Part shown: positions 288-63,540 of the stretch, in pieces
Position numbering within the stretch: position 1 is the stretch's first letter
Layout: each line of letters starts with the position of its first letter
Assembly: GCA_036346225.1 (NCBI GenBank)
Contig: JARFIW010001345.1
Span: 717,645 to 781,644, forward strand
DNA from: Platerodrilus igneus
Taxonomy: Eukaryota; Arthropoda; Insecta; Coleoptera; Lycidae
Direction of reading: 5' to 3'
Length of the DNA: 64,000 nucleotides
Made by a program: the position numbers and the translations under genes
Notes under the pieces: generated by a model
The model's input: the letters and a program-made list of their open reading frames with translations, nothing else
Told to the model about the DNA's origin: nothing
Database searches by the model: none

Positions 288-1925
288 CTAGTGGTGGTTT
301 TCAATTAAGAAAATGGAGTAGTAATTGCCCGGAAGTAATGTCCAACTTGAGGGAGTCCCTGTCCAGTTCGGACGCAATTACATTTCAAGATAAAAATAGT
401 GGTTCAATAAAAATTTTGGGGCTTTCGTGGCGTGCTCTTACAGATGCATTTTTATACAACTTAGACGTTGAAGAGCGCACTTGCACTAAGCGTAATATTT
501 TGTCGGCTATCGCAAAAATTTTTATCCTCTCGGGTTGATAGCACCTGTAGTACTGTTCGCCAAACGTTTAGTTCAAGATCTTTGGTTTTTAGGTTTCGAG
601 TGGGACCAAGAGCCTCCATTGGAAGTCATACAAAAATGGAAACATTGTTTGGGTGAATTGCCAGCGGTTTCGAACATTGAGATTTCGCGTCGCATCGTAT
701 GTCATAATTTTAAAAGGGTGGAGTTGCATGGATTCTGTGATGCTTCTGAAGCCGGGTATGCAGCTGTCGTCTATTTCCGTTCGTTCGATCTAGAAGGTAA
801 TATTCCCATTTCATTAGTATGCGCAAAATCGAAGGTTGCTCCTACTAATCGCGTTTCATTGCCCCGTCTCGAATTGTGTGCTGCCGTACTCTTGGCAGAT
901 TTAGTAGATTTCGTCAAAAATACTTATACAGATATTTATTTAGTAATATTTTCGCGTGGTCAGATTCTACTGATGTTTTGTCTTGGATTCGGTCTTCCTC
1001 GCATAAGTGGAAGACATTCGTTAGCAATCGTATTTCGCATATTCAAGAACGTATTCCTCCATCTTCATGGTTTCATGTTAAGTCCCAGGATAACCCTGCG
1101 GATTGTGCCTCACGTGGACTTTTGGCTTCAGAGTTGGTTCATCATCCATTATGGTGGACAGGACCTTCCTGGTTAGTGCGTCGTAATGAAGAATGGCCAG
1201 TAACATCGCTGCCAAAACTTATCGACTCATCTCAGATGGACGTCGAATATCGTACTCTGTCGTTAACAGTCATTATGTCTGACAATTTCTTAGATATGTT
1301 GTTGGATAAATTTTCAAACCTGCAGAAAATTTGTAGGATTATTACATGTATTCGTCATTTCATTCGTAATGTTCAATGTCCAGATTTGCGTTCAAAATAT
1401 TCTGATGGTTTGTCTCTAGCTCAACAGCAAGAGGCTATACATTTATTGATTAAAAGAGTTCAAACAAATGTTTTTGCCCAAGACATTTCTAATATTAAAA
1501 CTGGAAAACTTGTTAGTAAACAACTTCGTAGCCTTAGTCCGTTTCTAGATAGTCGTGATTTGTTGAGGGTGGGCGGTCGCCTACGTAACTCAGAGTTGTC
1601 GCATGATGCAAAATTTCCAATTTTGCTTCCTCGGTCGCATCGGTTGACTGAACTTATTATATTAGATTGTCATGAAAGACATTTACATCCTGGAAATCGA
1701 ACAACACAATTTTTACTAACTCAAAATTATTGGATCTTGTCCGCAAAGAGGCTCTTCGGCAATGTTTGAAATCCTGCATTCGTTGTTTTCGTGTAAACCC
1801 TGTGGCTTTATGCCCCCCTTTATGCCCCCCTATGGGGGATTTACCAGCTTCTAGGTTAACTCCAGGTAAAGCGTTTTTACATACGGGAGTCGACTTTGGT
1901 GGACCTTTCTCTGTCACGATGAATC
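288..1925 (+). pseudogene. BEL/Pao retrotransposon pol, first part (RT end, RNase H, integrase N-terminus)
   Basis: This is a remnant of a BEL/Pao LTR retrotransposon polyprotein. Seen in order are the RT thumb-side motif LRKW (about 305-316), the TKR..LSAIAKIF segment ending near 522, the FCDASEAGYAA RNase H motif near 735, the LPRLELCAAVLLA motif near 860, the WSDSTDVLSWI segment near 955, NPADCASRG near 1090, and the integrase zinc-binding region with its H..H part near 1670 and C..C part near 1765. The element starts abruptly at about 288, so the 5' LTR, gag, protease and most of RT are missing. Frame is lost near 521 (one base missing), near 950 and near 1745. A roughly 12-bp tandem duplication (tatgcccccc, twice) lies at 1805-1835. 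The integrase is cut at 1925 by the nested LINE and resumes at 11855 in the same codon phase. It is not functional. Confidence 0.88.
1912..1925. repeat. Target site duplication, left copy
   Basis: The 14-mer tgtcacgatgaatc occurs here and again at 11841-11854. The BEL integrase reading frame runs into the left copy and out of the right copy in the same phase. This marks the exact insertion site of the LINE between them. Confidence 0.92.
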
Positions 1926-3018
1926 CAACTTTCTAGTTGCCGGTTGAAGCGAGCGGACGGGTTTTTGCCGAGCTCCCGCTTCAGTAATAACAGTAAGTTT
2001 TTATCTAGGGTTTTTATTATTTATTGTAGTATTATTTTATTTGAAGCTTTGCTTTTTATTGTGTTTTATTTTTATAATTGTGTGCCATCAAATTTTAAAT
2101 ACAGGGCAGTAAATAAAAAATTTTAAAACAGAATTTAAACTAAATAAAAGCTAAATAAATCGCGTCTCTTTGTAAATTAAACCAAATCCGCGTTTTAAAA
2201 TAAACTAAATAAATTTCGGGTTAATAAAACAAAATCTACTAAACTAATACTCAAAAATAATTTCGAAATAACTTAAAAGGCATTTTAATAATAAATTTGA
2301 AATAAAAACCGCGTAAATCGAGTAAAAACCGGGTAAAACAACCAAAAGTGTGTGGAATTTTTATAGTGCGCGTATAATCAAATAATAACCAAAAAACAAA
2401 AATCTAAGCCTTTTTAAATCAAATAAATATCTTAAAAACTGTAAATTTTAAAACAATTTTAATAGAAATTTTCCGTAATTTAAGTACACGCGTACTTAAA
2501 AGTTTCTTTAAGATCGATTTTGGTGTAATTATGCGGTGTAGCAGTTACAGTTACCAAGTGATTAAGTGAAAGGTCATTTCCGGTTACCACATTCCGATTG
2601 CGCTCGACCTTATTTTCTTAATTACACGTTTAAAAATAAAGTGTTGTTGTTTATAAATTAGATATTTTAATATTTTGAAGTAATTAGTTTATTTAAATTT
2701 GATTTGGCGGTTTTAAAATTTAAAATAAATAAATAGTGTTCTTCGCGGTACATTTTGAATCGAATTGCGTTAGGAATTTATTTGATTCTAGTTGTTATTT
2801 TGACGCTTAGTGCTTGTTGTATTTTGTTAAAAATTTAATATTTAATTGGGCGGTTCGAAGTTTAAATAAATACAAGGTTGCTTACGGTTCACCTTTAAAC
2901 AAAACATTTTATTGAACCAACGTTTTGCGTTCTTCTAGCGTCGTTCTTTTAGCGTCGTAACGGTCAAGTGGTTTTGAGCTGCGTTTTAGGTGTCATTTTT
3001 GTCGTTTGTTTTGTCAGC
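1926..3018 (+). other. 5' UTR of the R1-clade LINE
   Basis: About 1.1 kb of very AT-rich sequence precedes ORF1. It has no coding similarity. It starts directly after the 14-bp duplication, so the LINE appears to be 5'-complete or nearly so. An internal promoter would be expected here for this class, but I cannot point to one. Confidence 0.6.
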
Positions 3019-4385
3019 ATGGTGGTCCACCGCGACGAGGAACCATTGCCCAGGAAGAAGAGGGAGATAGGTCGGAGGCTGAGGGCGCTGTTGGGGGGAA
3101 ACAGCTGAAGGTAGTATTAGAGGATGTAATGTTAGGGATTCAGGAGGAGGTACAGGAGGTAGAGGAGCCTGTGTCTGCGGCGGTCGTGTCGGTGGAGTCG
3201 GGGCCCCCTGGGGTGGCTGCGGCGTCTGAATCGCCCTCAACTTCGGGAGCCCAGCGAAAGATGTCGACTAGCAGCGACGTTAGCTTTGCTGTTGGCGACC
3301 TCGATGAGCTGGACCTCCTGAGATTGAGGGTGAGGAAGGCGCACTCGGTCATCTCCGCGAGGGTGCCGACGACCTCCGCCACTATCGTCGTGGAAGACAG
3401 AAAGAGGATTCGCTACGCCGTGGATGATTTCCTCGACGCGGCGAATCAACTTATAGGTATGGTTAGTGCGCTGCGGCTTGTGGCTAGTGATTCTGGGAGG
3501 GCTGATGTTGTCGGGGGAAGTCCAGCGGTGGTTACTCCTGTTGTAGGGCAGCAGTGTTCCAGGAGCCAGGAGTTACCGATGCCGCGGAAGGCGTCGTATG
3601 CTGCAGCTGCTGCAGGTGCGACGCCCACCTTTGCAGTTAGGGTCGACGCCAGACCAGGGGAGAAGGATGACGTCATGTCGACCCTAAAGAAGAAGGTCGA
3701 TCCCGCTCGTGATGGTTTTGTTGTGGTCGGAGCTCGTAGAACTCGAAGGGGCGGTGTAGTTGTCGAGTGTGCAAACCGAGAAGATGCGAAGAAATTGCAG
3801 TCGAAGGTTGTCGGTGACTGTAAAGAGCTCGTGGCGAAGACCATCGAGAAGAAGCGCCCACGGGTCGTTCTTCCGGGGTCGAAGCGGGGATGAAGGCGGA
3901 AGAGCTGGTGCGGTTGATCGCGTGCCAGAATCCCCGCTTCGGCGATTTGAAAATTGAAGACCACCTAAGAGAGAAGTTTAAATTTTGCGGAAAGGGCCCT
4001 AGGGATCCCTTCGTCAACGTAATCTTCGAAGTGACCCCCACACTTCGGAGACGCATATTAGCTGACGCTATAAACCTTAGGTGGCGAAGAGTCTGGGCCC
4101 GGGACCACTTCTCGATGACGCAGTGCTACAGGTGCTACGAGTACGGCCATAGATCGATGGAGTGCAGGGAAAAGGTACAGTGGTGCGGTAACTGTGCCGA
4201 AGTCGGTCACGAGTTCAAGAATTGCCGGAGGGCAGTCCCCTGCTGTGTGGTTTTGCGCTAGGGCAAACGACAGAACTGGCAGTGGCGCGAAGGTCGATAC
4301 GCGCCACGACGCCAAGTCGAGTAGATGCCCCACGATGCTGAGATTGAAGAACGCAATCACACGCAACATCGATTATGGACCGTGA
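3019..4385 (+). pseudogene. LINE ORF1, Gag-like protein with CCHC zinc knuckles
   Basis: ORF1 of the R1-clade element encodes a nucleic-acid-binding Gag that would package the element RNA. The ATG at 3019 gives a natural start (MVVHRDEEPLPRKKRE), with the frame changing near 3100. The open frame read from 3006 to 3893 is acidic then Ala/Val-rich, followed by a second frame (3890-4261) after a one-base loss in a G run near 3877. Two clear CX2CX4HX4C knuckles lie at 4124-4165 and 4184-4225. A third, longer one follows after another frameshift near 4253 (its H and C lie in TRHDAKSSRC). The final stop at 4383-4385 overlaps the ORF2 ATG at 4375, a termination-reinitiation arrangement typical of R1-like elements. 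Base composition is GC-richer than the surroundings. Confidence 0.82.
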
Positions 4386-5696
4386 AGAAAAAGATAGATT
4401 TAAAAGAAGCAAGAAGATTAAATTCGCGCAACTAAATCTCGGGAAAGGAAAAGGGGCTACAAATAACTTCGTAAAGTTATTCAGCGAAAATAATATCGAC
4501 ATCGGACTTATACAGGAACCGCACCTGTATAGCCACAAAATAACAGGTTTTGGGAAGGGGGTTACCGTTTTAAACGCAAACAGCGAACGACCGCGTAGCG
4601 GGATAATAATAAATAACGGGACGTGCGCCGGAATAATCCTAAACAATCTGTCGAATGAGTTCATAACCACCGCAGAAATAAAAACGGGATTGCATACGTT
4701 TTACGTGATAAGCACTTACCTTCCGCCGATCGATTCCCGGCGGGAGAATCCTCAAACAGAGGACTTAATAAATCAAATTGAAGGAATCCTTCGTAAAATC
4801 GGTAGAAATAGAAATTTAATTATCGCGGGAGACATTAATGCTAAGTCGCCATTATGGGGCAGCCCTATCGAAGACGATAGAGGCTCGCAGGTTGCTGATC
4901 TTTTTACGGGATGGGACCTTAGTGTGATAAACACTAACGATTCACCTACGTTTGAGACGCATAGAGGCAGCAGTTTTATAGATATTACTGCAGTCTCGCA
5001 CGAAATGTTAGAAACGATTTGTAATTAGAAACTAAGGTCGGACGAGGAAACGCTCTCTGACCATAAATTAATAACATGGGACGTTGAAACCAAAACAAGC
5101 GCAAACGAGCAGCTAACTATATTTCCGCGGTTCTGTAATAAAAAAGCAAATTGGGAGCGGTTTAAAGAAAAATTTGGCGAAAGTATCCCTGCGCTCGAAA
5201 ATGAGCTATTTAACTGCCGAGAGGCAGACGAAGTAGAAACACTCGCTAAAAAATTGAACGACGTGGTGGTAGACGCGTCGTCGTATTCCATGCCGCAAAA
5301 GAAAACATTTAAAGACAGCGTACCCTGATGGACCCGGGAACTAACCACCAAGCGGACAGAAACGCGTAACCAAAGGCGCCGCTATCAACGCGCCTCGGGA
5401 GATATAAGAGAACAACGGAGGATAGAATATAATCAAAGTTACCGCGAATATAAAATATTAATAGAAGAAACGCGAACGAATAAATTTAAAGAATTCTGCA
5501 CGCAAAACTCAGAGAAAGAACACTGGGGAACCGCATACCGCGTAATTAGAGGAAAACAACAAAAAATCGCGCTCAGTAATATAAAGAAAACAAATGGCGA
5601 ATATACGGAAGGTTTTAAAACCACAGCGGAATATTCACTAGAGAAATTTTTCCCATCGGATAATCCCGAGGGGATGAAGGGTCGCACGATTTAATA
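4375..5696 (+). pseudogene. LINE ORF2 N-terminal part: APE-type endonuclease and linker
   Basis: Begins MDREEKDRFKRSKK. The endonuclease nicks the target to prime reverse transcription. Motifs visible are AQLNLGKGK near residue 20, QEPHLY near 45, the Tyr/Pro motif ISTYLPP near 110, IAGDINAKSPLWG (GDxNxxS/H motif) near 150, and the SFIDITAVS region near 205, where an SDH motif usually follows. An in-frame TAG at 5026 and an in-frame TGA at 5327 (probably a former Trp codon) interrupt the frame, and the frame is lost near 5690. After the first stop the frame reads on through LSDHKLITW, confirming it is a nonsense mutation and not the true end. Confidence 0.85.
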
Positions 5697-7176
5697 CGTC
5701 GGAAGCTGCAAAGGCGCAAGGAACAGGTGCCGATAAGGCAATCCTAGTTCACGAGGTCGTCAGGGCTCTTAGGAGGATGAACCCTAAGAAGGCACCGGGG
5801 CATGATGGAATCACTTCAGACGCAGCTCTGCAGGCGTGCCTGTTAGCCCCGTGTGTCTTTGTTGGGTTGTTTAATCTTTGTTTAGAAAGGGGCGTTTTCC
5901 GCGTTGCTGGAAAATCCAGAATGTGAAATTTATACCCAAACCTAAAAAGGCGGATGCGTCAGATCCGGGCAGCTATCGTCCAATTAGCTTGCTACCGGTG
6001 CTGGGGAAAGTTTTAGATCGCGTTATGACTACGCGTGTTGAACACCTAGTGCGAGACAGCGGCGGTTTTAATAACCGACAGTTTGGTTTCGTGGAGGGCA
6101 AGTCGACTATCGACGCGTTAGAGTTCGTTGTCGGGAAATTAAGCAGGCAAGAGATGCCAAAGAGTACTGTGTCGTTGTTGCTTTGGACATTTCAGGAGCA
6201 TTTGATACTGCCTGGTGGCCATTAATCGTTTGCGAGTTAGATCGTAGGGGTTGTCCGCGAAACTTGATGTCTTTGGTCAAGAGCTATTTCTCGGGGCGAT
6301 TAGCACAGGTTGAAATTCCGGGTGAAGTTCTGTCGCGTGAGGTGGAAAGGGGATGCCCGCAAGGGTCATGTTCTGGTCCCACATTTTGGAAGTTGTTGTA
6401 TGAGAGCATCTTTAGGGTCAAGTTGCCCGCAGGATGCTCAATCGTTGGGTTTGCAGATGACACACTTTCAATTGTAAGAGCGAGATTGTTAATGGATATG
6501 CGCACAAAACCGAACGAGGCGCTTAATAAATTACACGAATGGTCGCAGGCGGTAAAATTAAAATTTAACACGGCGAAGTCAGAGGCGCTTTATTTCGGCA
6601 CGAAACCAGGACAGCGACCTCCTAGGTTAGAGCTAGGAGGGGAGAAAATCCCGTTTAAAGATTGTATTACCTACCTCGGCGTCAAGATCGACAATAAATT
6701 AAATTTGAAAGCGCACGTACAATACGTAAAAAGTAAGGGCGGCGAAATATCAAATAAAATGATGGCGGCGGCTAAAATAAAGTGGGGTTTCAGGGGCGAA
6801 TCGCTGAAGACGGTTTATGCCGGAGCAATTGAGCCGGCAATACTGTACGCAGCTTCTGTATGGGCAGAAGGTTGTAAAGTCCGGGAGATGCGTCAATTGA
6901 CGAGCGTACAACGCATAACCGCGGTAAAAGCGGCGAGGGCGTACAGGACCACCTCCACGGAGGCTGTCCTGGTGATCAGTAGGACTCTCCCTATCGAATA
7001 TGTCGTTAGGGAGATTAGAGATAGACGATTAATAAATATAGGAAAAGGGCGCGAAATTATCGAAGATCTTAATCTTGGTAATAGGGAAATTGCAAGAAAG
7101 ATTGTTGTATCTGAGTTAGGGCACCCGGCTGATATTAGAGGGATCGGGTTTTGTCGAAGGTGATGAGGACGCGATG
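5697..7176 (+). pseudogene. LINE ORF2 reverse transcriptase domain
   Basis: Continues ORF2 with the RT fingers, palm and thumb. Landmarks are MNPKKAPGHDGI near 5780, FIPKPKKA and YRPISLLPVLGK near 5930-6010, QFGFVEGKSTIDAL near 6085, ISGAFDTAWW near 6190, ERGCPQGSCSGPTFW near 6345, the catalytic box FADDT at 6450-6464, and the thumb region ending in AARAYRTTSTEAVLVISRTLPIE near 6930-7000. Frameshifts occur near 5885, near 6180 and near 7150. The FADD box is intact. The AYRTTSTEAVLVI tail is characteristic of R1-type RTs. Confidence 0.85.
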
Positions 7177-7815
7177 GGTATCAGAATTTATACGGACGGT
7201 TCACGTATGGACGATGGGCAAGCAGGCGCGGCGTTTGTCGTGTATAAGCAGGAAAGGGAGGTGTTTCGGTTTCAAACCAAACTCGCGAACTGGTGCACTA
7301 TCTTCCAGTGCGAATTGGTAGTCATACGAAAGGCTATCGATTACGTAATAAACTATACGGGCAGAGACGAGTATTATATAATCAGTGATAGTAAATCGGC
7401 GCTAACGGCTTTAACAAACATGAACACCTCGACAGATCTCCAAGCGGACGTCTGGAGGATATTGCGTACGGCGCTAGAGTTTCGACGTTTAAAGTTCTGT
7501 TGGGTCAGGTCGCACAATGGTAACGTAGGAAACGATAGGGCTGACGAATTAGCTAAAGAGGCCGCGACGGGCGACTTTCGAATATCACATTCGTCGATAC
7601 CGAGGTCTTTAATCAAAAGAAAGCTGCGCGAAAAATCAATTCGACAATTGGAAGAGAGGTGGAACAACGCTGCCACGGGCAGGTTGACCCACAAATTCAT
7701 ACCGAGCATAGAAGCCAGAGGTAAGATCGAGGTTAAGCTCGATCACAAAATGGTGCAGTTGATAACAGGGCACGGCGCCCTGAAGGCGTATTTACAAAGG
7801 TTCGGTCTAACCAAC
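7177..7815 (+). repeat. 639-bp direct repeat, left copy
   Basis: Positions 7177-7815 match 9680-10318 with equal length and only about half a dozen substitutions noted by eye (for example near 7354, 7462, 7528, 7597 and 7650). Both breakpoints are sharp: left ggtatcag, right accaac. Confidence 0.92.
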
Positions 7816-7875
7816 TGTAACCTTCGGTTTTATTTTATAAATATGCATCAACTACCCTACATAATTTCATGCTAA
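7177..7875 (+). pseudogene. LINE ORF2 RNase H domain, first copy (truncated)
   Basis: Encodes a type I RNase H with the expected acidic residues: Asp in YTDGSRMD, Glu in FQCELVVIRKA, Asp in ISDSKSALTAL, and the His/Asp pair in SHNGNVGNDRADELAKEA. It ends in LITGHGALKAYLQRFGLTN and then, from 7816, runs into unrelated sequence, giving a short artefactual tail to a stop at 7875. The zinc-knuckle end of the protein is missing here but present in the second copy. Confidence 0.85.
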
Positions 7876-9679
7876 AATTCATATTCTTATAATAGTATTT
7901 TAACGTAACATTTTAAAACCTGTTAAGACTTGGAAAATAGTTGATTGTAAGGCAGGTGGTCGCTTGGGTTTCCAAGAAAACACGCAGCACCTGCATGTTA
8001 GTTTTCATATAGTTTAGCATTGGCGATCTTCCTTCAATATAATAGTGGTATACTTTCGTCTCACTTACCGATAATTTGCGAAGATAGGGAAAGAAGGTAT
8101 TCGTCGTCGTTTTAAGTTAGTTCACGTTGGGTACTCGAAGGGTTGCGAGATGTAATTGTAGAAAGCTCTTTTAGGCGCGAAGTGCAATAAACATTCACGT
8201 GCATAATTAATTGGTTTGGTCGTGTAAAAGTTAAATGGTTTCTTTTACGACATAGTTGCTCCGATTTCTTTTTAAGGAGGATTTTAAGCACGTTGAATAA
8301 ACGGGTTATAAAACCGCACGTTACTAGTTGTTAGTAAGTAACGGAATATTTAAATTTCACCGGAGGCGTTTTGCATTGAGATTGTTTTTGGGACGAAATA
8401 AAACCCGGACCCAACGGACTCGCGTAGTTAGTTTTTACGTTAATTTAGGAAACTGTTATCGTCATAAGATTAATAATAAGTTTATTGCTTATCAGAGAAG
8501 TTAATGTGTGTTGAGTGATAATTATTAACCCGATAATTCACGGAACTGGACCAGCGAACCATAACGTATTTCATTCTTTGTTGGCTGTCCTAAAGGTTCT
8601 CGAACCAGTTTAATCCGGTAAATTTCGATATTTGCAGCTCATTATATCAACGAACACCTCACTGGATTCTTGGTGCTGCTTCGAAATTCATCTTCTTTCT
8701 AAGCCGTTAGTTGATGTACCGTCCTGGAGTACACCAGTGCTCGCAATCGATTAAGGTAAACTGAAGCCTGAAAACTGAATTCCTGCGGTAGTTTCACCAT
8801 CTGTACTGTAAGTTATAATTGCCATATTATTTTATAAACTGAACTTGATTACAATTCTGTATTATGTTCAATTTCGTACGGATAAAACTATTTTAAAATG
8901 TTCATTTTACGTTGACTTATTTAGGAAATTTAATCATTGTTGATACAGCGATAGGAGGATCCATTAGGGTTGGTAGAAAGATTTAATGAAAACTAAATAT
9001 ACATGAATTGTTTGTTGCTCAACACATTAATATTGGTTATAATTAATAGAAACATGTTATGGAGGTTGTGTATAATTTAGAGGTGGGTATGTTGATTTGG
9101 TGTTCAGTTAAAGACTGCTATCTGGTTATATTAGAACAAATTCCGTCCTTCTAAAATTATAATTTTATGAGTTTAAGTAATACTGTGAACAGGGATTCAG
9201 ATCAAATATATTTAATTTAAAGACTCCATCCCCCCTAGTTCAGAATATCTTAAGTGATAACTATATTACAGGTACAAGTAGTGTTAAACTTGCATTATTG
9301 TTATTGATCATTTTTAAACAGCCAGGAGGTGTACAACAACTTGGCTAATAACTTGAGATAGTGTCATTCCCATATTTTGTCATACGGGTTTCTTGTCCGA
9401 GAAGAATAAGCTTTCCCTCATTTTGCCGTTCTTCTATAAAAGACAAGGAATCCATGCCACTTTAGGCAGAACTCTACTAAAATAAGGGTGGTGCCCAGAA
9501 TTCACCAGTTTAGTCAAGATAACTATTATTACTCTCCACTCCCCTCCCCATTTTACCCCGCCCGTCTCCACTGCAGCCAGCCGAGCCGCGGTTTAGTTCG
9601 TTCCTTTGAGCTTACCGTGTTTGTTCATGCCTCTTCCCCCCTAACATCATCGTAACGTCAATTTTGGCATCAGAATTTT
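7816..9679. other. 1.86-kb foreign segment inside the LINE
   Basis: This sequence separates the two copies of the 639-bp repeat and does not resemble the LINE. It contains no ORF of note. It begins tgtaacc and could be read as ending ttttggca, so an LTR with TG...CA ends was considered, but no short target duplication fits. The last 150 bp (about 9535-9660) are C-rich and look promoter- or exon-like. A small echo of the junction (cagaatttt then cagaattta, 9671-9692) sits at the right end and suggests a repair-type join. Identity unknown. Confidence 0.6.
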
Positions 9680-10318
9680 GGTATCAGAATTTATACGGAC
9701 GGTTCACGTATGGACGATGGGCAAGCAGGCGCGGCGTTTGTCGTGTATAAGCAGGAAAGGGAGGTGTTTCGGTTTCAAACCAAACTCGCGAACTGGTGCA
9801 CTATCTTCCAGTGCGAATTGGTAGTCATACGAAAGGCTATCGATTACGTAATAAACCATACGGGCAGAGACGAGTATTATATAATCAGTGATAGTAAATC
9901 GGCGCTAACGGCTTTAACAAACATGAACACCTCGACAGATCTCCAAGCGGACGTCTGGAGGATTTTGCGTACGGCGCTAGAGTTTCGACGTTTAAAGTTC
10001 TGTTGGGTCAGGTCGCACAATGGTAACGTAGTAAACGATAGGGCTGACGAATTAGCTAAAGAGGCCGCGACGGGCGACTTTCGAATATCACATTCATCGA
10101 TACCGAGGTCTTTAATCAAAAGAAAGCTGCGCGAAAAATCAATTCGACAATGGGAAGAGAGGTGGAACAACGCTGCCACGGGCAGGTTGACCCACAAATT
10201 CATACCGAGCATAGAAGCCAGAGGTAAGATCGAGGTTAAGCTCGATCACAAAATGGTGCAGTTGATAACAGGGCACGGCGCCCTGAAGGCGTATTTACAA
10301 AGGTTCGGTCTAACCAAC
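9680..10318 (+). repeat. 639-bp direct repeat, right copy
   Basis: Second copy of the 7177-7815 segment. The LINE sequence continues naturally from this copy to the 3' end, so this is the right-hand junction of the interruption. Confidence 0.92.
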
Positions 10319-10543
10319 AGCGACCGCTGCGAATGCGGTGAGGGCGCGGAATGCGCAGAGCACGTGCTCTCCGACTGCCCGCTTGAGGCGGGAAATCGAG
10401 GGTTGGCTGATAGCAAACTAGCTATCCTAGGTCTGGCATGGCCAAAGAGCCTAGAGGAAGTCGGGGAAGTGGTTAACCAGAAGGCGTTCTGGACAGCCTT
10501 AAAAGAATTCGCGGGAAAGGTCGCAAGATTAGACAATCAATGA
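9680..10543 (+). pseudogene. LINE ORF2 RNase H domain, second copy, with C-terminal zinc knuckle
   Basis: Repeats the RNase H domain from YTDGSRMDDG through FGLTN, then continues into the genuine ORF2 C-terminus: a CCHC-type motif in CECGEGAECAEHVLSDC at about 10328-10378, then a helical tail (LAILGLAWPKSLEEVGEVV) and a TGA at 10541. The catalytic residues are retained; one change (GN to VN in the HNGNVVNDRAD motif) differs from the first copy. The open frame is uninterrupted from 9680 to the stop. Confidence 0.87.
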
Positions 10544-11584
10544 CGACCGCGTGTAAAAATTCGGTGGGGTTGGTGGGAGGATTGAAAAATTTTAGATTGA
10601 CTTGGCGTGAGTAAGGATACGAGCATAACCAAAACCTGATATTAAATAAAAAAAAAAGATAATTATACCAAAATGTCCAATATGCACGAGAAACCCCCAC
10701 TCCATTAATACAATCACTGCCTATCTTCATAATTATGTGCGGAAAATCGGGAATAAATAATACCAAATAAACAATAACAAATAAATCATAAACCCTCATT
10801 AAATTAAATCAATAAAGTAAACAAAGATAATAAAATAGAGTGAAACCGCGCAAACTCCCCAGGACTTGAAAGTGAAGTGATAGTGATAGTGATTGTGATC
10901 CCCCCAAGAACATTTAGTGCATACCCACCAGGACTTTAGCAGTGCACCCCGTCCCACCTTTAGAAGTAAGTTACAGACGACCAGATCTTCGGATGCTGGA
11001 GAATTTTATTATCGAGGTAAGACTTAAATTGTGGCGGCTGTACTCGCACAAGCATTGATTTACATTAATTAGTAGTTTTTGAAATAATTTAAGAAGCACG
11101 TTTGGTGTGTAAAGGCGCTAGCCGACATAATGCTTGTGCGAGTGCATCTGATAAATAGGGTGATGCTTTCGCTATTATGTGCACTGCTATATGGTTAACG
11201 CTTATTAAACATTTATTTATATATTTACATAATTATATTTATTTATATTTTATATTTATTTATATATAGCATGTATTATGTGGCTTATTTGTTTTGTTTG
11301 ACGTTCTGTCGCCATTTTGGTTGCAGTATATATTTGGGAAGGACGAGCAGAATTGCGAAGATTGTAATCATAATGTAAATCAGTTAGGGAACGATAGGGA
11401 AAGCTAGGGATGGATTTAAATTAGTTAGCTAGATTTGGATAGTTTTAAGACGACCCTTCAGGTCGCACTGGTAAGCAGAACCGGCGTCTGCTATCCGGTA
11501 TTACGGATCCCTCCCCCTCTCATTTTTGCTTGTTGATCGGGTACACTCAAAAGTCAGCGCTACGGATACCATTATTTACAACCC

Positions 11585-11712
11585 TGTTTTTAGTTTTTGT
11601 TTTGTTTTTGTTCCAGTTTTTGTCAGATTTTTAGGTTTGTTAGATTGTTAGAGTTTGTTAGGTTTGTTAGATTTTTAGGTTTGTTAGATTTTTATTTAGT
11701 TTTTATTTAGGG
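11585..11712 (+). repeat. T-rich minisatellite-like block
   Basis: Imperfect tandem copies of gtttgttagatttttag and related words (tttgttagattgttagag, gtttgttagatttttattt) within the LINE 3' UTR. Confidence 0.6.
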
Positions 11713-11769
11713 TGAATCAACTATGAAGTAAGAATAAATTAGGAGCACGACTATTTTTCGCGTTTAAAC

Positions 11770-11824
11770 CCAATGTAGTACCTCCGGGTGGAGCATTGGG
11801 GACGTGGCCGCAAGTATAGCGGCC
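11770..11824 (+). promoter_or_regulatory. Paired hairpins at the LINE 3' end
   Basis: Hairpin 1 (11770-11799) has outer arms ccaatg/cattgg and an inner pair ctcc/ggag around gggt. Hairpin 2 (11806-11824) has arms ggccgc/gcggcc around aagtata. They end 16 nt before the element terminus. LINE RTs of several clades recognise 3'-terminal RNA structure, so these are candidate RT recognition elements. Hairpin 1 is shared with the SINE copies at 44050-44079 and 60113-60142. Confidence 0.7.
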
Positions 11825-11840
11825 CTAATTCAAATTTTAA

Positions 11841-11854
11841 TGTCACGATGAATC
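11841..11854. repeat. Target site duplication, right copy
   Basis: Second copy of tgtcacgatgaatc, identical to 1912-1925. The BEL integrase frame resumes here. Confidence 0.92.
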
Positions 11855-43246: not shown

Positions 43247-43255
43247 CGGATAACT
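43247..43255. repeat. Target duplication of RTE copy 1, left
   Basis: cggataact, repeated exactly at 47784-47792. Confidence 0.85.
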
Positions 43256-43499
43256 CATCATCATTAGGTCTTCAGTGCTGGAACTGGTTAGACACGTACC
43301 CTCATTGTTTCCTATTCTGAACTAACCTTAACATTTCCCTGAAATTTACGCAGTCTGAATCTATCACTATCTGCATGCGAAAGTCTGATCTCGGTCTACC
43401 TCTACCTCTTTTTCCTATCTATGCTTGTAATATATTCCGTACTATTCCTTAAGAATGCCTTAGAACGTATCCTACCCTACTATATCTTCTAATTTTTTT

Positions 43500-43819
43500 T
43501 GTTGTACACAGAAATTTTTATTCCTCTACTATTTGTATAACCTATTTGTTACGATATTAACTTCGTCTGTCCATGCTGCCATCCTCATATATCTGAAGCA
43601 CAACACTCCAGAAGACTTCTATCCTTTTCTTTCTGCTTTTTTTTCCGTCTCTATTTCATAGACGTACTGTGCTGTGCTCGACAAATATGCTTTGAACAAT
43701 TTTCTTCTAGTTTCTATGTTTGTTGTCTTTGAATATCGCTGCTGTACTTTTTTGTTTGATGAGTTCGGTCACCTTCTATTGTTTTACAGCTATATACCCT
43801 ATTTACCCGATATTCAGTG
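43500..43819 (-). pseudogene. Duplicated RT C-terminal segment in RTE copy 1
   Basis: Minus-strand reading gives NIETRRKLFKAYLSSTAQYVYEIET then MRMAAWTDEV, the C-terminal RT region that also occurs in the main body (about 45000-44700). It is a second, diverged copy of the same segment within one element. Confidence 0.65.
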
Positions 43820-43827
43820 GTATGTGA

Positions 43828-44094
43828 TGTGGTACGCCCAAGGTCCTGGGTTTGAATCCCGACACGGTCCGCTTGAAAAATGTTAGGCGAGCATTTTTCA
43901 CAAAAATACACCCTCGTTCGGACAAGAGGTAAAATGGAGGTCCCGTGTGTGAGTGTTGTCGCGCACGTTAAAGATCCCTACCTTGGTTGGAACAGCAAGG
44001 GTTTGGCAAAATTCTAAATTTTCCATGTAAAAAAGAACTCGTTTCTTGGCCAATGTAGTACCTTCGGATGGAGCATTGGTAAATCACATGTAAA
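43828..44094 (+). mobile_element. tRNA-derived SINE, copy 1 (head partly deleted)
   Basis: Contains a polymerase III B box (ggtttgaatcc, 43849-43859) and the body cgcttgaaaaatgttaggcg, gtcgcgcacgttaaagatcc; near the 3' end is a 30-nt hairpin (44050-44079). Flanked by gtatgtga at 43820-43827 and 44095-44102. The tRNA-like head up to the A box is deleted relative to the copy at 59855. It is inserted antisense to the RTE. An unfilled version of the same site lies at 44416 in the same element. Confidence 0.8.
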
Positions 44095-44699
44095 GTATGT
44101 GAAAGGGGGTAAACAGCCTTTGGCTACCAAGTTTACCAATCTAATTAATAGTTCTTCCAATATATCCTTTCGCACAATCAACATTAGTTGAAAATATTTC
44201 ACAACCATCACCTGTAATAATCATCAGATTTAAGTGCACTTATTTTTTTGTCATTAGGTTGTCCGTCTTGAAACTGGTTAGACACATACCTTAACTTATT
44301 TTATGTTTTGAGCTAGCCTGCACAGTTCCCTGACATTTACACAACAGCCTATAAACAGCTTGGTCCCTTTCTCTTGTTTTCTAATTATATGCCCTATATT
44401 ACCGAGATTCAGTGGTATGTGGATGGGGTTAAGCAGCCTGTGGCTGCCAAGGATCCCCCAATACCTAGACATTTGCCGAATTAATAGTTTTCCAGTAATT
44501 CCTTTCGCGCAATTAACATTAGTTGAGAATATTGCAAGACCAATACCTGTAGTTGTTTATAATAATGATCATATTTAAGTACAGTTCTTTTTTTCGTCAT
44601 TAATTTTTCCGTTTTTTTACTGGTTGAATTGATTTCTATTCTAAGCTAGCCTACACTTTTTTCTTAAATTCTCACATACTACAACTTTCTCTGCTTTTA

Positions 44700-46560
44700 A
44701 TATATTTTGCACTATTGTCTCGTGTCTTAGTAGGTGACTTATCATCATATCTCTCCTATTTTTTACCGCTTTTCACATATTTCCTTCTTCCCTTACCATT
44801 TCTAGTACCTCTTTGTTCTTAACTTTTGTCTGAGCTTGATATCTTCATCATACGTCTGCAGCACCACATTTCAAAGACATCAACCTTTTTTTTTGGACGC
44901 TTCCCCTACTGTCCAGGATTCACAGCCCTACAGTGCAGTTCTCCACACATATGTTTTAAGCAATCTTTTCCTTGTTTATTTGATTGTTGTCTTTGAACAC
45001 AGTAGTTGCTTTTTCTTGTTAAATGTAGCACGATCTTGTGCTAATATTTGTTTTGTACCTTTTGTGCTTTTGCAGCTTGCGCTATTTGGCTTTATAGGTA
45101 GCAGAAATCCTTAACCTCTTGTAAGTTCTCGATATCTATTTGTATTCTTATTTTTGAATTATTTTCCCCTCTTTTGCAGACTAGAACTTTAGTTTTATTT
45201 TTATTAATTTTCATACCGTATCTCACTGTTAGGACTGTTTCCATTTCATTAACAGCAGCTTCTAACTTTTCTTTGCTAGATGCTAATATCGCTATATCAT
45301 CTGCAAATCTCAGCATATCAATCTTTTGTCCCTGCATAGTAATTCCAAATGTCTTCCTGCATTTGACAGTATTCATAGCCTCTTCAATGTACAAGTTAAA
45401 AATTAATGGGGATAAGGTACATCTCTGTCTCACACCTTTCCTAGTATTTACTTCTCTACTTTCCTGATCTAATTCCGTCACCGCTGTTTGCTCTTTGTAT
45501 AAGTTATGTACTATCCGTCTATTCCTAGAACTCATTCCAATCTTTTTGAGTATTTTGAAGAGTTGTTTTCCATTTTACATTGTCAAATGCTTTTTCCAGA
45601 TCTACAAACCCCAGATACACGCTTTCTCCCTTTTCTATTGTTTTTCCATTATCCCCCTAAGAGCTAAAGTAGCCTCTCGTGTTTCCCTGTTTTCGCCTAA
45701 ACCTAAATTAATCGTCTCCTATTATTTCTTCAGCTCGTTCTTCCATTCGACTTTGTACAATTCTAGTCAATATTTTTGACACGTGTGCTGTCAAACTTAT
45801 TGTTCGAAAATTTTCACATCTATCCGCGCCTCATTTTTTGGTATAGTTACTATGGTGTCATGCTTGAATTTTTGGGTATGTTGTCTGTCTCATGCATATA
45901 GCTTACAAGTTGAAAGAAATGTCCTGTTACTGCTTGTCCAGCGGCTTTTGGAGTTTCTGCTTGCACCTTATCTGTACCAAGCGTCATACCATTTTTCAGA
46001 CCCTTAAATGCTAATTCAAACTCATCTCTTAGTATAGGATATCCCAAGTCATCATTTTCAATATACAAGTTCTGTTCCAATGCTGTTAGTTCCTCTCCTG
46101 CATATGAATTACCTATATAGCCTTGCTATCTAATCACTTTCTGTACATTTTCTATAATGACGTTTCCTCCTGCGCCCATTATATCTTTGGTATATGGTTT
46201 TATCCCTTAAATTAATTCTAATTAGTTTGTATGCTTCGTCTGCCTTTCCTATTTCCATCTTAGTTTGTACCTCTTTGCACTTTTCATCAATCCATTGTTC
46301 TTTAGTTTTCCTGGATTCGCAAATAGTTTCCCATTTTACGGCTTTATATCCTTGTTTCCCGCTTCGTCTGATCTATTTTTGTATTTTCGTGTGTCTTCTA
46401 ATAAACTCAGGATATCATTTGTTATCCATGGTTTCTTATTTCCTTTTTGTGTATACCCCAGAAAATCTCTGGCCGCCATGTAAAAGCTGGATTTAATGTT
46501 ATTCCATTCAGTTTCTACTTCCTTAGTATCAGAAATGTTCCCGATATCTTTCAGCAATTC
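44700..46560 (-). pseudogene. RTE copy 1 reverse transcriptase
   Basis: N-to-C: ETEWNNIKSSFYMAARDFLGYTQKGNKKPWITNDI (linker, 46557-46336), DEFELAFKGLKNGMTLGTDKVQAE (RT entry, 46080-45950), GVRQRCTLSPLIFNLYIEEAM near 45440-45380, catalytic LRFADDIAILASS near 45310, YGMKINKNKTKVLVC near 45210, and KDFCYL near 45095, then the C-terminal region to about 44700. The FADD box is intact, but stops and shifts separate the blocks, for example near 46330, 45840, 45540 and 45090. Confidence 0.83.
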
Positions 46561-46599
46561 ATTTGACTTTTTTTCAAATCTTTCGTGTATATCTTTATC

Positions 46600-47300
46600 T
46601 TTTAGCTTCTCAAAGTCAGAGTGCTTTTTTCCGTTTTTTTTTCAAATTTTAAAATTTAATACGATGTTGTAGTCAGTGTCTAAATCTGCTTCTGTATAGC
46701 TTCTACGGTCTTTTACTTGATTCCTAAACCATTGTCTAACAAGAATGTAATCTATTTGAAATCTTCCTATACCTCCTGGCATCTTCCACGTGTATCGTCT
46801 TCTAGCATGATATTGAAATAATGTGTTTGTGATGGTTTAATTGTTCTTGTTGCAAAATTCTACCAGCCTATTTCCCCTGACATTTCTCGTGCCTTAACAA
46901 AACAAACCTACTACAGCCCCTGCCTAACCCTCACCTACTACTGCATTAAAATCTCCCGTAATATTAAATTTTCATGACCTTTTACGTATCTTAGTATGTC
47001 TTCGATATCTTTGTAGATCGCATCTACTTCTTTCTCACTGTAGCTAGAGGTGGGCATGTATACGTATATTATTACTGTATTTACCAGTTTAGATTCTAAT
47101 CTAACCATGAGTACTCTTTCGTTCTTTTGTAAGTAGTTTTCTACACGTTGTCCTATCTTTTTTCGCATAACTATTCCCACACTCGAATTTCGTTCTTCTG
47201 ATCCTGTATGAATTACCCTGAAGTCTCCACTCCAAAAATCCTCCGTCTCTGGCCAACGAACTTTGCTGATCTCTACTATGTTTAGTGCTAACCTATCCAT
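46600..47300 (-). pseudogene. RTE copy 1 APE endonuclease
   Basis: Starts near MDRLALNIVEISKVRWPETEDFWSGDF (47300), continues VGIVMRKKIGQRVENYL and VIIYVYMPTSSYSEKEVDAIYKDI to about 46940, then after frame loss RYTWKMPGG and FQIDYILVRQWFRNQVKDR near 46800-46720 and a DTDYN segment (the SDH-region equivalent) near 46680. The amino end (NVRS..GK motif seen in copy 2) is poorly preserved. Confidence 0.8.
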
Positions 47301-47499
47301 TTTTCTGGTTCTCTAACTTACCTACTTGCTCCATATTTTTGACATTCTACCCTCCGATTCGCTAAATGTTCACGAATCTTTTTTATACTTATTATCACTT
47401 CCCCAAAGTAGTCCTCTCCCGGAGATTCGGATTGGGGCTATTTTACCTCCGAAATTTTTTATATCTGGGGATGCCATCATTATTAATAACAATTTCTGT

Positions 47500-47783
47500 A
47501 CGCAGTGTACGTAGGAGGTAATGTGGTGGTTATACGTTGACTTCCACATTGCAATAGTGTGTCTTAGAATGCCATACCAACCCGAATGGTCTCTGCCACT
47601 CTAAGTACCAAAAAAGCGGCTGTCCTCTTTCAGGAACCTGTCTTAGTCTGGCTCCTCACTAAAGACCTCACTAATTTGGTTAAACTTATAGTTAGGCTCT
47701 TTAGCTCACTGAAACACGCAAGCCATTCTACCCGCTATTGTATTTTAGAACTTCTTCAAGGTGCAGGTCCGTTCAGAATGGGT
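47500..47783 (-). other. RTE copy 1 5' UTR
   Basis: Conserved with 13200-13490 and 63250-63531. All three stop matching at the same outer boundary, defining the element's 5' end. Confidence 0.75.
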
Positions 47784-59300: not shown

Positions 59301-59599
59301 ATCATCATCATTAGGTCTTCAGTCCTGGAACTGGTTTGACGCGTACCCCCATTGTTTCTTATTCTGTGCTAACCTACACATTTCCCTGAAGTTTCTACAG
59401 TTAGCATCTTACACTATCTGTGTGCAACAGTCCGATTTAGGTCCACCTCTTTTTCCCTATCTCTGCTTGTAATATATCCCGTACTATACAACAAAAATGC
59501 TTTAGAACGTATCTCACCCTCTATTTCTCTTATTTTTGGTTTTCCTCAGATATATTTATTCCCCTACTATTTCTATAACCTCTTCGTTATTAACTTTGT

Positions 59600-59846
59600 C
59601 TGTCCATGCAATCATCCTCATACATCTGAATCACAACATTTCAAAAGGCTTCAAATGTATTTCTGTTTGCTTTTCCTACTATCTCTATTTCGTAAAAGTA
59701 CTGTGCTGTGCTCCACACATATGCATTCAATAATCGTCTCCTTGTTTCTATGTTAGTTACATAGCCGCTGCTCTTACTTGTTAGATGCAGTTTGGTTCCC
59801 CTTCTATTGTTTAGAAATACATACTCTATTTCCCCGATATTCAGTG
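59600..59846 (-). pseudogene. Duplicated RT C-terminal segment in RTE copy 2
   Basis: Reads NIETRRRLLNAYVWSTAQYFYEIEIVGKANRNTFEAF on the minus strand (about 59757-59641; one run of this segment), corresponding to the main-body segment LLKTYVWNLALYICETWTVEE at 60760-60690. Confidence 0.7.
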
Positions 59847-59854
59847 GTATATGA

Positions 59855-60157
59855 GGGGGGGAGGCAGCTCCGTGACGTAGTAGTATGTGTGTGACTACTA
59901 CGACCAAGGTCTCGGGTTCGAATTCCGAGACGGTCCGCTTGAAAAATGTTAGGCGAGCATTTTTCACAAAAATACGTCCTCGTTTGGATGAGAGATAAAA
60001 TGGAGGTCCCGTGTGTGAGTGTTGTCACGCACGTTAAAGATCCCTACCTTGCTTGGAACAGCAAGGGTTCGGAAAATTCAACATTTTTCAGGTAAAAAAA
60101 CTCGCTTCCTGGCCAATGTAATATTTTCGGGTGGAGTATTGGAAAATCACATGAAGG
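59855..60157 (+). mobile_element. tRNA-derived SINE, copy 2 (complete head)
   Basis: About 303 bp. The head has an A-box-like gacgtagtagta (about 59873), and the B box ggttcgaattc (59915-59925) sits in a ctcgg/ccgag T-arm. The body shares gcttgaaaaatgttaggcga and cacgcacgttaaagatccct with copy 1. The 30-nt hairpin is at 60113-60142. Near-duplications gtatatga (59847-59854) and gtatataa (60158-60165) flank it. Antisense to the RTE. Confidence 0.83.
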
Positions 60158-60535
60158 GTATATAAAGGGGGTTAGCAGTCTGCGACTATCAAGATCCCCC
60201 AATACTTGAACAATTACCGAATTAATAGTTTGCCAATATATCCCTTCGCACATTCAACATTGGTTGACAATATTCGAAACCAACACCTGTAGTTGCTTAT
60301 AATAATCATAAGCTTTAAGTGCAGTTAATTTTTTCGTTATTAAATTTTCCGTATTGGAATTGGTTGGACACGTAACTCAATTAATTTGTATTCTGAGCTA
60401 GCCGACACATTCCTCTGAAATTCCCACAGCCTACATCTTTCACTATCTGTGTGTAATAGTCTAAAATAGGTCTACCTCTACCTCTCTTTTTTCCTAGCCC
60501 TACTTCTAATATATTCTGCACTATTTGCTCATGCC

Positions 60536-61220
60536 TTAGTATATGGCCTGTCTCCTAGTTTTTACTGTTTTCCACATACTTCTTTCTTCCCCTAACATTT
60601 CGAGTACTTCTTTGTTCCTAACTTTGTCTGTCCATGATATCCTCATCATATGTCTGTAGCACCACATTTCAAAGGCTTCTATCTCTTTTCTTTCCGCTTC
60701 TTCTACTGTCCAGGTTTCACAGATGTACAGTGCTAGGTTCCACACATATGTTTTAAGCAATATTTTCTTTACTTCTACGTTTATTGTCTTTGAACACAGT
60801 AATTGCTTTATCCTGTTAAATGTAGCACGACCTTGTGCTAATCTTCGTTTTATTTGTTTTGTGATCTTCCAATGTTGCGTTATTTGTCTTCCTAGGTAGC
60901 AGAAATTCTTAACCTCTCGTAGGTTCTCATTACCTATTTATATTCTGGTTTTTAGTTTATTTTGCCCTTCTTTGCATACTAGTACTTTAGTTTTATTTTT
61001 GTTAATTTTCATACCGTATCTTTCCGTTAGAACTGTTTCCATTTCATTAACAGCAGCTTCCAACTCTTCCTTGCTAGATGCTAATGCCGCTATAACATCT
61101 GCAAATCTAAGCATATCAATCTGTCGTACCTGCATAATAATTACAAACGTATTCTTGTATTTAACAGTAGTCATTGACTCTTCGATGTACAAGTTAAAAA
61201 GTAATGGGGAATAAAGCACA
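60536..61220 (-). pseudogene. RTE copy 2 reverse transcriptase, palm to C-terminus
   Basis: SPLLFNLYIEESMTTV at about 61215, then LRFADVIAALASS near 61095 (the second catalytic Asp is Val), ERYGMKINKNKTKVLVC near 61010, and the C-terminal FEMWCYRHMMRISWTDKVRNKEVLEMLGEE near 60670-60590. Frame breaks near 60940 and 60765. The upstream RT portion lies in the broken stretch to 61900. Confidence 0.83.
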
Positions 61221-62338
61221 TTCCTGGCTCACCCTTTCCTAATATTTACTTTTCTACGTTCCTGCTATAATTCCATTACCGCTGTTTACTCTTTGTATAA
61301 GCTATGCACTATCCGTCTATCTCTAAAACTCATTCCACTTTTTTGGGTATTTCAAACATTTTTTTTTTAATTTTATATTGCTGAATGCTTTTTTCAGTAC
61401 TACAAACCCTGTCAACACGCTCTCCCATTTTTCTATTGTTTTCTCTATTATCACTCTCAGAGTTAAAATAGCCTTCCGTGTTCCCCTGTTTAGCCTAAAC
61501 CTAAACTCCTAGTACTTCTTCAGCTCATATTTTCATTCGTCTTTGTACAATTCTAGTTAATATTTTTGACACATGTGCTGTCAAACTTATTGTTCGAAGA
61601 TTTTCACATCTATCCGATCCTCCCTTTTTTGATATAGTGACTATGATGTTACGTTTGAAATTTTTCGGCATCTCGCCTGTCTCATATTTATAGCCTACAA
61701 GTAGGAAAAGACGTTCTGTTACTGTTTGTCAAGCGGCTTTTAGAGTTTCTGCTTGCACCTTGTCTGTACCCGGTGCCTTACCATTTTCCAGGCCCTTTAA
61801 TGCTAATTCAAACTCTTCTCTACGTATAGGATACCGCAAGTTATCCTTTTCAATATCCAATTCTTGTTCTAATGCTGTAAGTCCTCTCCTGCATATAAAT
61901 TCCCTATATATTCTTGCTCTCTACATTTTCTATATTGACGTTTCCTCCCGCGTCCTTTATTTTTTTGCTATATGGTTTTATATCCCTAAAATTCATTCTA
62001 ATTAGTGTATATGCTTCCTCTGTCTTTCCTATTTGCATCTTAGTTTCTACCTCTTTGCATTTTTCATCAATCTTGTGTTCGTTAGCGTTCCTGCATTTGC
62101 GAATAATTTTCCATTTTATGGCTTTGCATCTCTGTTTTTCTGTTTCATCTGATCTATTTTTGTATTTTCGTGTTTCTTCTGTTAGATTCAAAATATCCTG
62201 TGTTAACCAAGGTTTCTTATTTTTGTTTTGTGTATATTCCAGAATATCTCTGGCTGCCATGTCTAAGCTGGATTTAATGTTATTCCATTCTGTTTCTACT
62301 TCCTTAGTATTAGAAATTTTTCTGATATATTTCAGCAA
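61221..62338 (-). pseudogene. RTE copy 2 linker and RT entry
   Basis: A 144-codon frame (62338-61904) carries ETEWNNIKSSLDMAARDILEYTQ, KKPWLTQDILNLTEETRKYKNRS and a basic helical region (CKAIKWKIIRKCRNANEHKIDEKCKEV), matching the linker of copy 1. Below 61900 the RT entry is recognisable only in pieces (for example KVQAETLKA near 61765). Confidence 0.75.
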
Positions 62339-62383
62339 TTTATTTGACTATTTTTTTAAATCTTTTGTGGATATCTTTATCTT

Positions 62384-63125
62384 TTAGTTTCGCAAAGGCA
62401 AAGTGCCTTTGTGGTCAGTGTCTATATCAGCTTCTGGGTAGTTTATACAGTCTTTTACTTGATTCCTAAACCGTTGTCTAACGAGACTGTAACTTATTTC
62501 AAATCTTCCGATATCTCCTGGCATCTTCCACGTGTATCGTTTTCTAGCATGATGTTGAAATAATGTGTTTGTGATAGTTAAATTGTACTTGTCGCAAAAT
62601 TCTATCAGCCTATTTATCCTGTCTTTTCTCGTACTTAAACCAAATAAATCTACTACCGTTCCTTCTCTATCCTCACCTACCACTGCATTAAAATCCCCCG
62701 TAATTATTAAATTTTCATGTCCTTTTACGTGTCTTAGTATGTATTTGATATCTTTGTAGATCGCCTCTGCCTCCTTCTCACTTTAGCTAGAGGTAGGAAT
62801 GTATACTTGTATTTTTACTGTATTTACCTGTTTAGATTCTAATGTAAGATTGAGTACACTTTCGTTCTTGTGTAAGTAGTTTTCTACACGTTGTCCCATC
62901 TTTTTTATCATAATTGACCCACGCCCAAGTTTCCTTCCTCTGATCGTGTTTGAATTATTTTAAAGTCTCCACTCCAAAAATTACCCGCTTCTGGTAAGCG
63001 AACTTCGCTGATTCCTACTATGTTTAGTGCTACTCTATACATTTGAATTTGCAAGTGCTCTAGCTTACCTACTTGCTTCGCACTTCTGACATTCCACGCT
63101 CCGCTTCGCAGAATGTTCACGACTC
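62384..63125 (-). pseudogene. RTE copy 2 APE endonuclease
   Basis: N-terminal SGAWNVRSAKQVGKLEHL (63105-63050; the NVRS..GK endonuclease start) and LNIVGISEVRLPEAGNFWSGDFKII. After a frame break at about 62910 the middle is partly lost, then MVGEDREGTVVDLFGL near 62680, NTLFQHHARKRYTWKMPGDIGRFEISY near 62570-62490, and a DTDHKG segment near 62405 (SDH region). It is better preserved at the N-terminus than copy 1. Confidence 0.82.
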
Positions 63126-63249
63126 TTTTTTATACTTTCCTATCACATCCCCCAAAGTAGTTCCCTCTCGGAGATCCGAATGGGGTACTGTTTTAACTTC
63201 GGAATTTTTTACCCCAGAGGATGCCATCATCTTTAATAACAATTTAAGT

Positions 63250-63531
63250 ACGCTGTGTACTTAGGAGACAATGTGGGGGGTTTCCGTTGCTTTCCACATC
63301 GCAGTAATGTGTCTTAGAATGCCATACCGACCCTTATGGTCTCTGCCACTCTAAGTACGAAAAAAACTGCTGCCCTCTTTCGGGGACCTGTCTTAGTCTG
63401 ATTTCTCATTATAGGGACTAGTACTTTGGTTGAACCTGTAGTTTGACTCTTTAGATCACTGGAACGCGGAAGTCATTCCACCCGTTCTAGTAATATAGAA
63501 CTTCTTCAAGGTGCAGTTCCATTCGGAACGG
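63250..63531 (-). other. RTE copy 2 5' UTR
   Basis: Matches 13200-13490 and 47500-47783. Confidence 0.75.
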
Positions 63532-63540
63532 GACAGTCCT
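63532..63540. repeat. Target duplication of RTE copy 2, right
   Basis: gacagtcct; see 59292-59300. Confidence 0.7.

Follow-up and report, generated by a model that had tools for sequence, protein, structure and literature searches.

Does the LINE of this locus mobilize the SINE found twice further downstream? The question arises from a 30-nt hairpin that the two elements have in common within the window, the 64,000-nucleotide stretch of Platerodrilus igneus DNA analysed here. As originally predicted, the hairpin occupies positions 11770..11799 in the LINE, 44050..44079 in SINE copy 1 and 60113..60142 in SINE copy 2, always on the plus strand and always 30 nt long. The LINE hairpin has a TCCG loop, that of SINE copy 1 contains a single broken stem pair, and that of SINE copy 2 is decayed. 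In the window comparison, identity to the LINE 30-mer was 28/30 for SINE copy 1, again matching the prediction, and 25/30 for SINE copy 2. When the LINE 3' region was aligned locally to either SINE region, with or without gaps, the top-scoring match comprised precisely these 30 nt, and a degenerate form of the 30-mer, searched with up to three mismatches, gave three matches in the window and none in 100 shuffles. Our reading, to which we assign a probability of roughly 85% from sequence evidence, is that the R1-like LINE copies the SINE in trans through the common hairpin.

A perfect 14-bp target duplication, TGTCACGATGAATC, flanks the LINE, with the 5' copy at 1912..1925 and the 3' copy at 11841..11854 (both plus strand); the element therefore spans 1926..11840 on the plus strand. 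Its three enzymatic domains lie in separate plus-strand frames: an endonuclease frame at 4348..5028 (Pfam Exo_endo_phos_2, E 3.9e-20; PDB TRAS1, 1.2e-15, and R1Bm, 2.8e-11), part of a reverse transcriptase (RT) frame at 6075..7163 (Pfam RVT_1, E 3.6e-19), and an RNase H and C-terminal frame at 9656..10543 (Pfam RNase_H, E 1.9e-15). An insert at about 7816-9679 interrupts the element, and the 639 bp preceding it (7177-7815) recur beyond it at 9680-10318 with 99.2% identity. The LINE itself interrupts another element, in which DUF5641 and, below threshold, an integrase core were matched and which we take to be of BEL/Pao type. With the LINE ending at 11840, as the 14-bp duplication shows, the hairpin falls short of the LINE terminus, and the expectation that it forms the extreme 3' end did not hold for either element. 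The LINE goes on for 41 nt past the hairpin, including a second stem-loop at 11804..11825 on the plus strand (from the fold of 11770-11840) that is absent from the SINE, and the SINE goes on for 14 nt.

Assignment of the LINE to the R1 clade is probable, and is based on the endonuclease, target duplications of about 14 bp and the arrays described below rather than on a tree. TRAS1 and R1 chains, R1 fusion chains included, were the sole PDB matches to the endonuclease up to E 10, in a database that has few other LINE endonucleases. PDB matches to the RT were weak and uninformative, with a group II intron RT on top, and one of 21 RT protein relatives bore an R1-type name. Protein searches with the RNase H (six matches) and the endonuclease (one match) were of no help with the clade. 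The original description of an R1-clade LINE thus stands as far as an R1-type endonuclease, duplication length and arrays are concerned, and its clade label is probable rather than proven. The flanks of 49 LINE copies vary widely, so this LINE is not confined to one site; insertion into 28S rRNA genes does not define the wider R1 clade.

The family was surveyed across 2.71 Gb of genome. A first look with the last 341 nt of the LINE gave 168 candidates, and all 40 that were scored matched end-to-end at 97-100%. The hairpin, which had been expected in other LINE copies, was present in 30/30 fetched LINE loci, identical in 29 and with a single change in one. The exact LINE-type 30-mer occurs 3,247 times in the genome and the exact SINE-type 30-mer, which differs from it by one loop base, 19,708 times; the reversed control of each gave 0. 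Among 19 exact LINE-type sites, picked from 100 listed places of the 3,247, 18 were the 3' end of the window LINE and one was a SINE. In one of the 18 (L091), an RT/RNase H match lies 1,258 nt upstream of the site on the same strand, the corresponding distance from the frame end in the window being 1,227 nt. The 30-nt hairpin is a genome-wide feature of both families.

LINE copies end in ..TTCAAATTATAA at dispersed sites. Several have unusual structures. At L104, and at L049 after a LINE end, LINE copies start exactly at hairpin base 1, downstream of the target spacer, and a duplication of 12-13 bp surrounds the copy at L049; from these two starts, the hairpin may be a point where reverse transcription tends to stop. 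At L047 the LINE 5' end (window positions 1927-2072) is fused directly to the LINE 3' end (11468-11840), giving an internally deleted, SIDE-like element with a further LINE 5' part downstream; a duplication was looked for at this locus and none was found.

The SINE is about 298 bp long, as measured on two array copies, and has a pol III-type promoter near its 5' end. An A box was seen in 25/30 copies and a B box in 28/30; where both occur (24 copies), they lie 42 nt apart in all but one. ARAGORN (bacterial code) found no tRNA fold in the SINE head in the window or in 12 loci, and Rfam gave no match to SINE copy 2 up to E 5. Of the proposed tRNA-SINE, the pol III promoter boxes were thus recovered, and a recognisable tRNA fold was not, by either program. 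Beyond the hairpin, the SINE ends in 14 nt that mostly read AAAATCACATGTAA; in a second subfamily the tail is AAATGTAAATG(A/C)A(A/C) and the hairpin is conserved. Comparison of the terminal tails of LINE (41 nt) and SINE (14 nt) gave no significant similarity (P 0.16, 0.03 and 0.45 for three SINE tails). An apparent likeness of the two termini (11/15, obtained with a SINE tail that overran by one base) was rejected, family tails not being significantly alike. The SINE body contains an internal run of five T (e.g. window 43890-43900), some pattern of which occurs in at least 27 of 30 copies and could end pol III transcription early.

At -14.4 kcal/mol and z -3.85, the LINE hairpin folds into 7 bp, a 2x2 internal loop, 4 bp and a 4-nt loop. 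In the commonest SINE form the loop is TTCG and z is -3.67; we take TCCG and TTCG both to be loops of the UNCG type. The window SINE hairpins had z values of -1.51 (copy 1) and -0.40 (copy 2), with many shuffles folding equally well. Covarying arms, part of the original prediction, were not supported. Among the three window copies, none of 11 pairs changed on both sides, three changed on one side and one cell was broken (pair 12-19, SINE copy 1), and 500/500 shuffles attained every observed measure. A wider set of 31 LINE and 83 SINE hairpins, a few loci of which were counted twice, contained one two-sided compatible change, 11 one-sided changes and 22 broken cells. Since C-to-T opposite G leaves a wobble pair by default, such changes are a weak sign of selection. 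Hairpin copies hardly vary, and divergence is too low to judge covariation. Rfam at the gathering score matched nothing in the whole window, including any ribozyme at the LINE 5' end, and at low stringency around the LINE ends it returned weak, non-credible matches alone. Searches of viral contigs with the hairpin and SINE core, and of prokaryote contigs with the hairpin, gave no match, and the viral contigs contained no relative of the RT either.

Insertion sites of the two elements were then compared. Ten 5'-truncated LINE copies had target duplications of 14 bp (five copies) or 13 bp (two copies), with none found in three. Among 73 distinct SINE 3' flanks, in 40 of which the 14-nt tail was found, 61 gave a duplication and 12 did not; 14 bp was the commonest length (18), followed by 13 (10) and 15 (9), and the five of 61 duplications at the finder's 20-bp maximum are at least partly array artefacts. 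Target position 2 was G in 45/49 LINE and 37/40 SINE sites, versus 9/49 and 6/40 at a downstream control position, and N-G-T/C was found at 39/49 LINE and 36/40 SINE targets, the 40 SINE sites excluding 28 at the block site described below. Position 1 differed, with T in 88% of LINE sites and A in 52% and T in 40% of SINE sites; the SINE query ran one base, an A, past the element into the target, and this may explain some of the difference. At one repeat, a LINE (L058) and a SINE (L065) occupy the same place. Four LINE ends among the 18 sampled (L092, L100, L104 and L108) have the 14-mer TGCCTTACAACTTG next to them and differing sequence beyond it, which suggests arrays or a preferred target.

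Both window SINEs lie in copies of a repeated block. By self-comparison, the block with SINE copy 1 covers 43255..47782 (plus strand) and a second copy, 59302-63532, contains SINE copy 2, with 76-79% identity between them; the block has tandem units and an RT fragment at 45092-45574 on the minus strand. SINE copy 1 (43833..44093, plus strand) is 5'-truncated or 5'-deleted, its 3' end being set by the family and its start known to within a base or two. Both of its flanks align, with a 15-bp overlap, to an empty target site within one of the block's tandem units (44415..44429, plus strand). SINE copy 2 (59862..60156, plus strand, start likewise within a base or two) retains its head and has, by eye, a GGTATAT..GGGGG duplication on both sides. 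The two SINEs are 90.4% alike versus 78.9% and 81.8% for their flanks, and in 551 of 553 pairs among 35 SINE entries the likeness of the SINE exceeded that of the 3' flank; window copy 1 appears under two names among the 35 (L001 and W1), and one entry (L029) comes from outside the block. SINE copies at the block site also vary in 5' start and subfamily. A single insertion duplicated with its surroundings is less likely given these identities, starts and subfamilies. In our reading, each window SINE arrived by its own insertion at one preferred site; gene conversion between them could still have taken place.

LINE and SINE also occur side by side. A SINE head was found 14-16 nt past the LINE 3' end in 4/49 LINE 3' flanks. 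Across the genome, 172 places have a SINE head starting 0-30 nt past a LINE end, and in 164 of these the gap is 12-17 nt; reversed controls gave 0. The spacing is 14 or 15 nt at 66 of the 100 places listed. SINE-SINE neighbours numbered 911 (14-15 nt in 62 of 100 listed), and LINE-LINE neighbours with a full 5' start numbered 17, of which 14 were at 13-17 nt by coordinates; all of these counts include any duplicated arrays. The 12-17 nt LINE-SINE spacing is one target duplication. At L041 the order is LINE, TGTCAATATACATG, SINE, TGTCAATATACATG and LINE 5' start, with 14-bp spacers, and at L060 the two array spacers differ by one base. On one contig (C20:2639443-2642859), nine SINE-SINE junctions, spaced for the most part by about 0.3 or 0.6 kb, form a long SINE array within about 3.4 kb. 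Mixed arrays of this kind provide genomic evidence for one cutting and copying machine used by both elements.

Two alternatives would account for the match or for the adjacency in other ways. The short length of the match, taken by itself, might allow it to be accidental or a one-off insertion into the window LINE copy; this has a negligible probability and is refuted by the presence of the hairpin at 30/30 LINE loci, by thousands of exact genome copies against none for the reversed control, and by an expectation of only about 1e-4 chance hairpin pairs in the window. An unrelated insertion into one LINE copy, raised at the outset as a possible objection, also fails on position, for the hairpin lies within the LINE's own target duplication and is therefore no later insertion. 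The adjacency of LINE and SINE might instead result from a SINE motif preference near LINE ends or from duplication of whole arrays, with no common endonuclease. Some arrays are indeed local and repeated, as at three places about 1.1 kb apart on contig C581, and any whole-array duplications are among those counted. We nevertheless find this explanation very unlikely in the face of arrays on many separate contigs, a spacing peak at 14-15 nt (66/100 listed), spacers that differ among the rows with letters, and the same motif at SINE sites outside arrays.

Two further alternatives accept R1-like machinery as the mover of the SINE and alter its source or the history of the hairpin. Given the abundance of related LINE copies, the SINE may be driven by a sister family with the same hairpin and target habits, of which the window family is just a relative. 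Room for such a family is provided by 37,849 first-look candidates for the R1-like protein, 78 of which were scored and fell into at least two groups by match pattern, and the LINE and SINE are unlike in the base before the target G. Set against this, 18 of the 19 sampled exact LINE-type hairpins were the window LINE's 3' end, and it is this 3' end that participates in arrays with the SINE. A sister driver is rather unlikely. The LINE could also have taken the hairpin from the SINE, or both from a third element, with LINE machinery still moving the SINE. This is quite unlikely: SINE-type copies outnumber LINE-type copies by about 6x, as it would have it, but the LINE retains the longer structured 3' end, and in known pairs, according to PMC3747384, the SINE tail derives from the LINE. 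We infer that borrowing went from LINE to SINE.

Mobilization of the SINE by the R1-like LINE, as first proposed, remains the preferred reading. This putative partnership is supported by the hairpin families and target sites, because duplication lengths are similar, the target motif is common to both elements and LINE-SINE arrays are spaced by one duplication; the hairpin, moreover, proved neither missing from other LINE copies nor a later insertion. Against it count the lack, in the SINE, of the LINE's second stem-loop and last 41 nt, the unlike terminal tails and target position 1, the copies of either element that gave no duplication, the absence of covariation and the internal T run. Mechanistically, a SINE with pol III-type promoter boxes would be copied in trans by an R1-like LINE whose protein presumably recognises the 30-nt hairpin near the RNA end, and a SINE RNA with the same hairpin would therefore be taken as template. 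Target-primed reverse transcription would begin at the RNA 3' end, with N-G-T/C following at the site, and insertion would leave a target duplication of about 14 bp. Since this duplication would restore the target, the same site could be reused, building LINE-SINE, SINE-SINE and LINE-LINE arrays one duplication apart. Evenly balanced, in our estimate, is the bolder proposition that one 30-nt UNCG-capped hairpin is the entire portable ticket for R1-type retrotransposition, by which the SINE would inherit 14-bp duplications and a target preference, move thousands of times, build mixed arrays by site reuse and repeatedly hit preferred sites in other repeats.

LINE/SINE pairs reveal which RNA a LINE protein accepts, and the present pair probably extends such pairing to the R1 clade, known above all for inserting at specific sites. 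In the part of PMC3747384 examined, the table of LINE/SINE pairs has no R1 among the identifiable clades, the clade of LfR1 aside. Searches of the open PMC literature yielded no pair of an R1-clade LINE and a pol III SINE. A text search with the SINE core word returned no SINE paper by title or abstract start, and a search of the beetle SINE literature produced nothing useful among the matches listed.

Close parallels exist on both sides of the pair. In Drosophila, according to PMC3414825, R1 makes 14-bp duplications and arrays spaced by these, with R2/R1 SIDEs among the arrays. The elements described here resemble that system in their 14-bp duplications, duplication-spaced tandem arrays and interspersed non-autonomous elements; in contrast, R2/R1 SIDEs are not pol III SINEs and reside in 28S rRNA genes, whereas here the elements occupy dispersed sites and A and B boxes are present in the SINE. 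The window LINE endonuclease is related to that of TRAS1, which with SART1 represents the R1 clade at silkworm telomeres; unlike the window LINE, with its TTCAAATTATAA ends at dispersed sites, those elements are telomere-specific and poly(A)-tailed. For SART1, PMC7265360 reports that the 3' UTR is required and that the protein recognises it and moves reporter RNA in trans. Lastly, in the stringent pairs UnaL2/UnaSINE, RSg-1/HpaI and HaRTE1/HaSE1, a LINE with a common 3' stem-loop is thought to mobilize the SINE (PMC3747384 and PMC4176376, and PMC3272025 for HaSE1). The present SINE and LINE likewise have a 3' stem-loop region in common. In the stringent pairs, however, the common part extends to the 3' terminus itself (43 bp in HaSE1), whereas here it is the 30-nt hairpin alone and the termini differ, and with the common part thus narrowed to 30 nt, the R1-type recognition element becomes directly testable.
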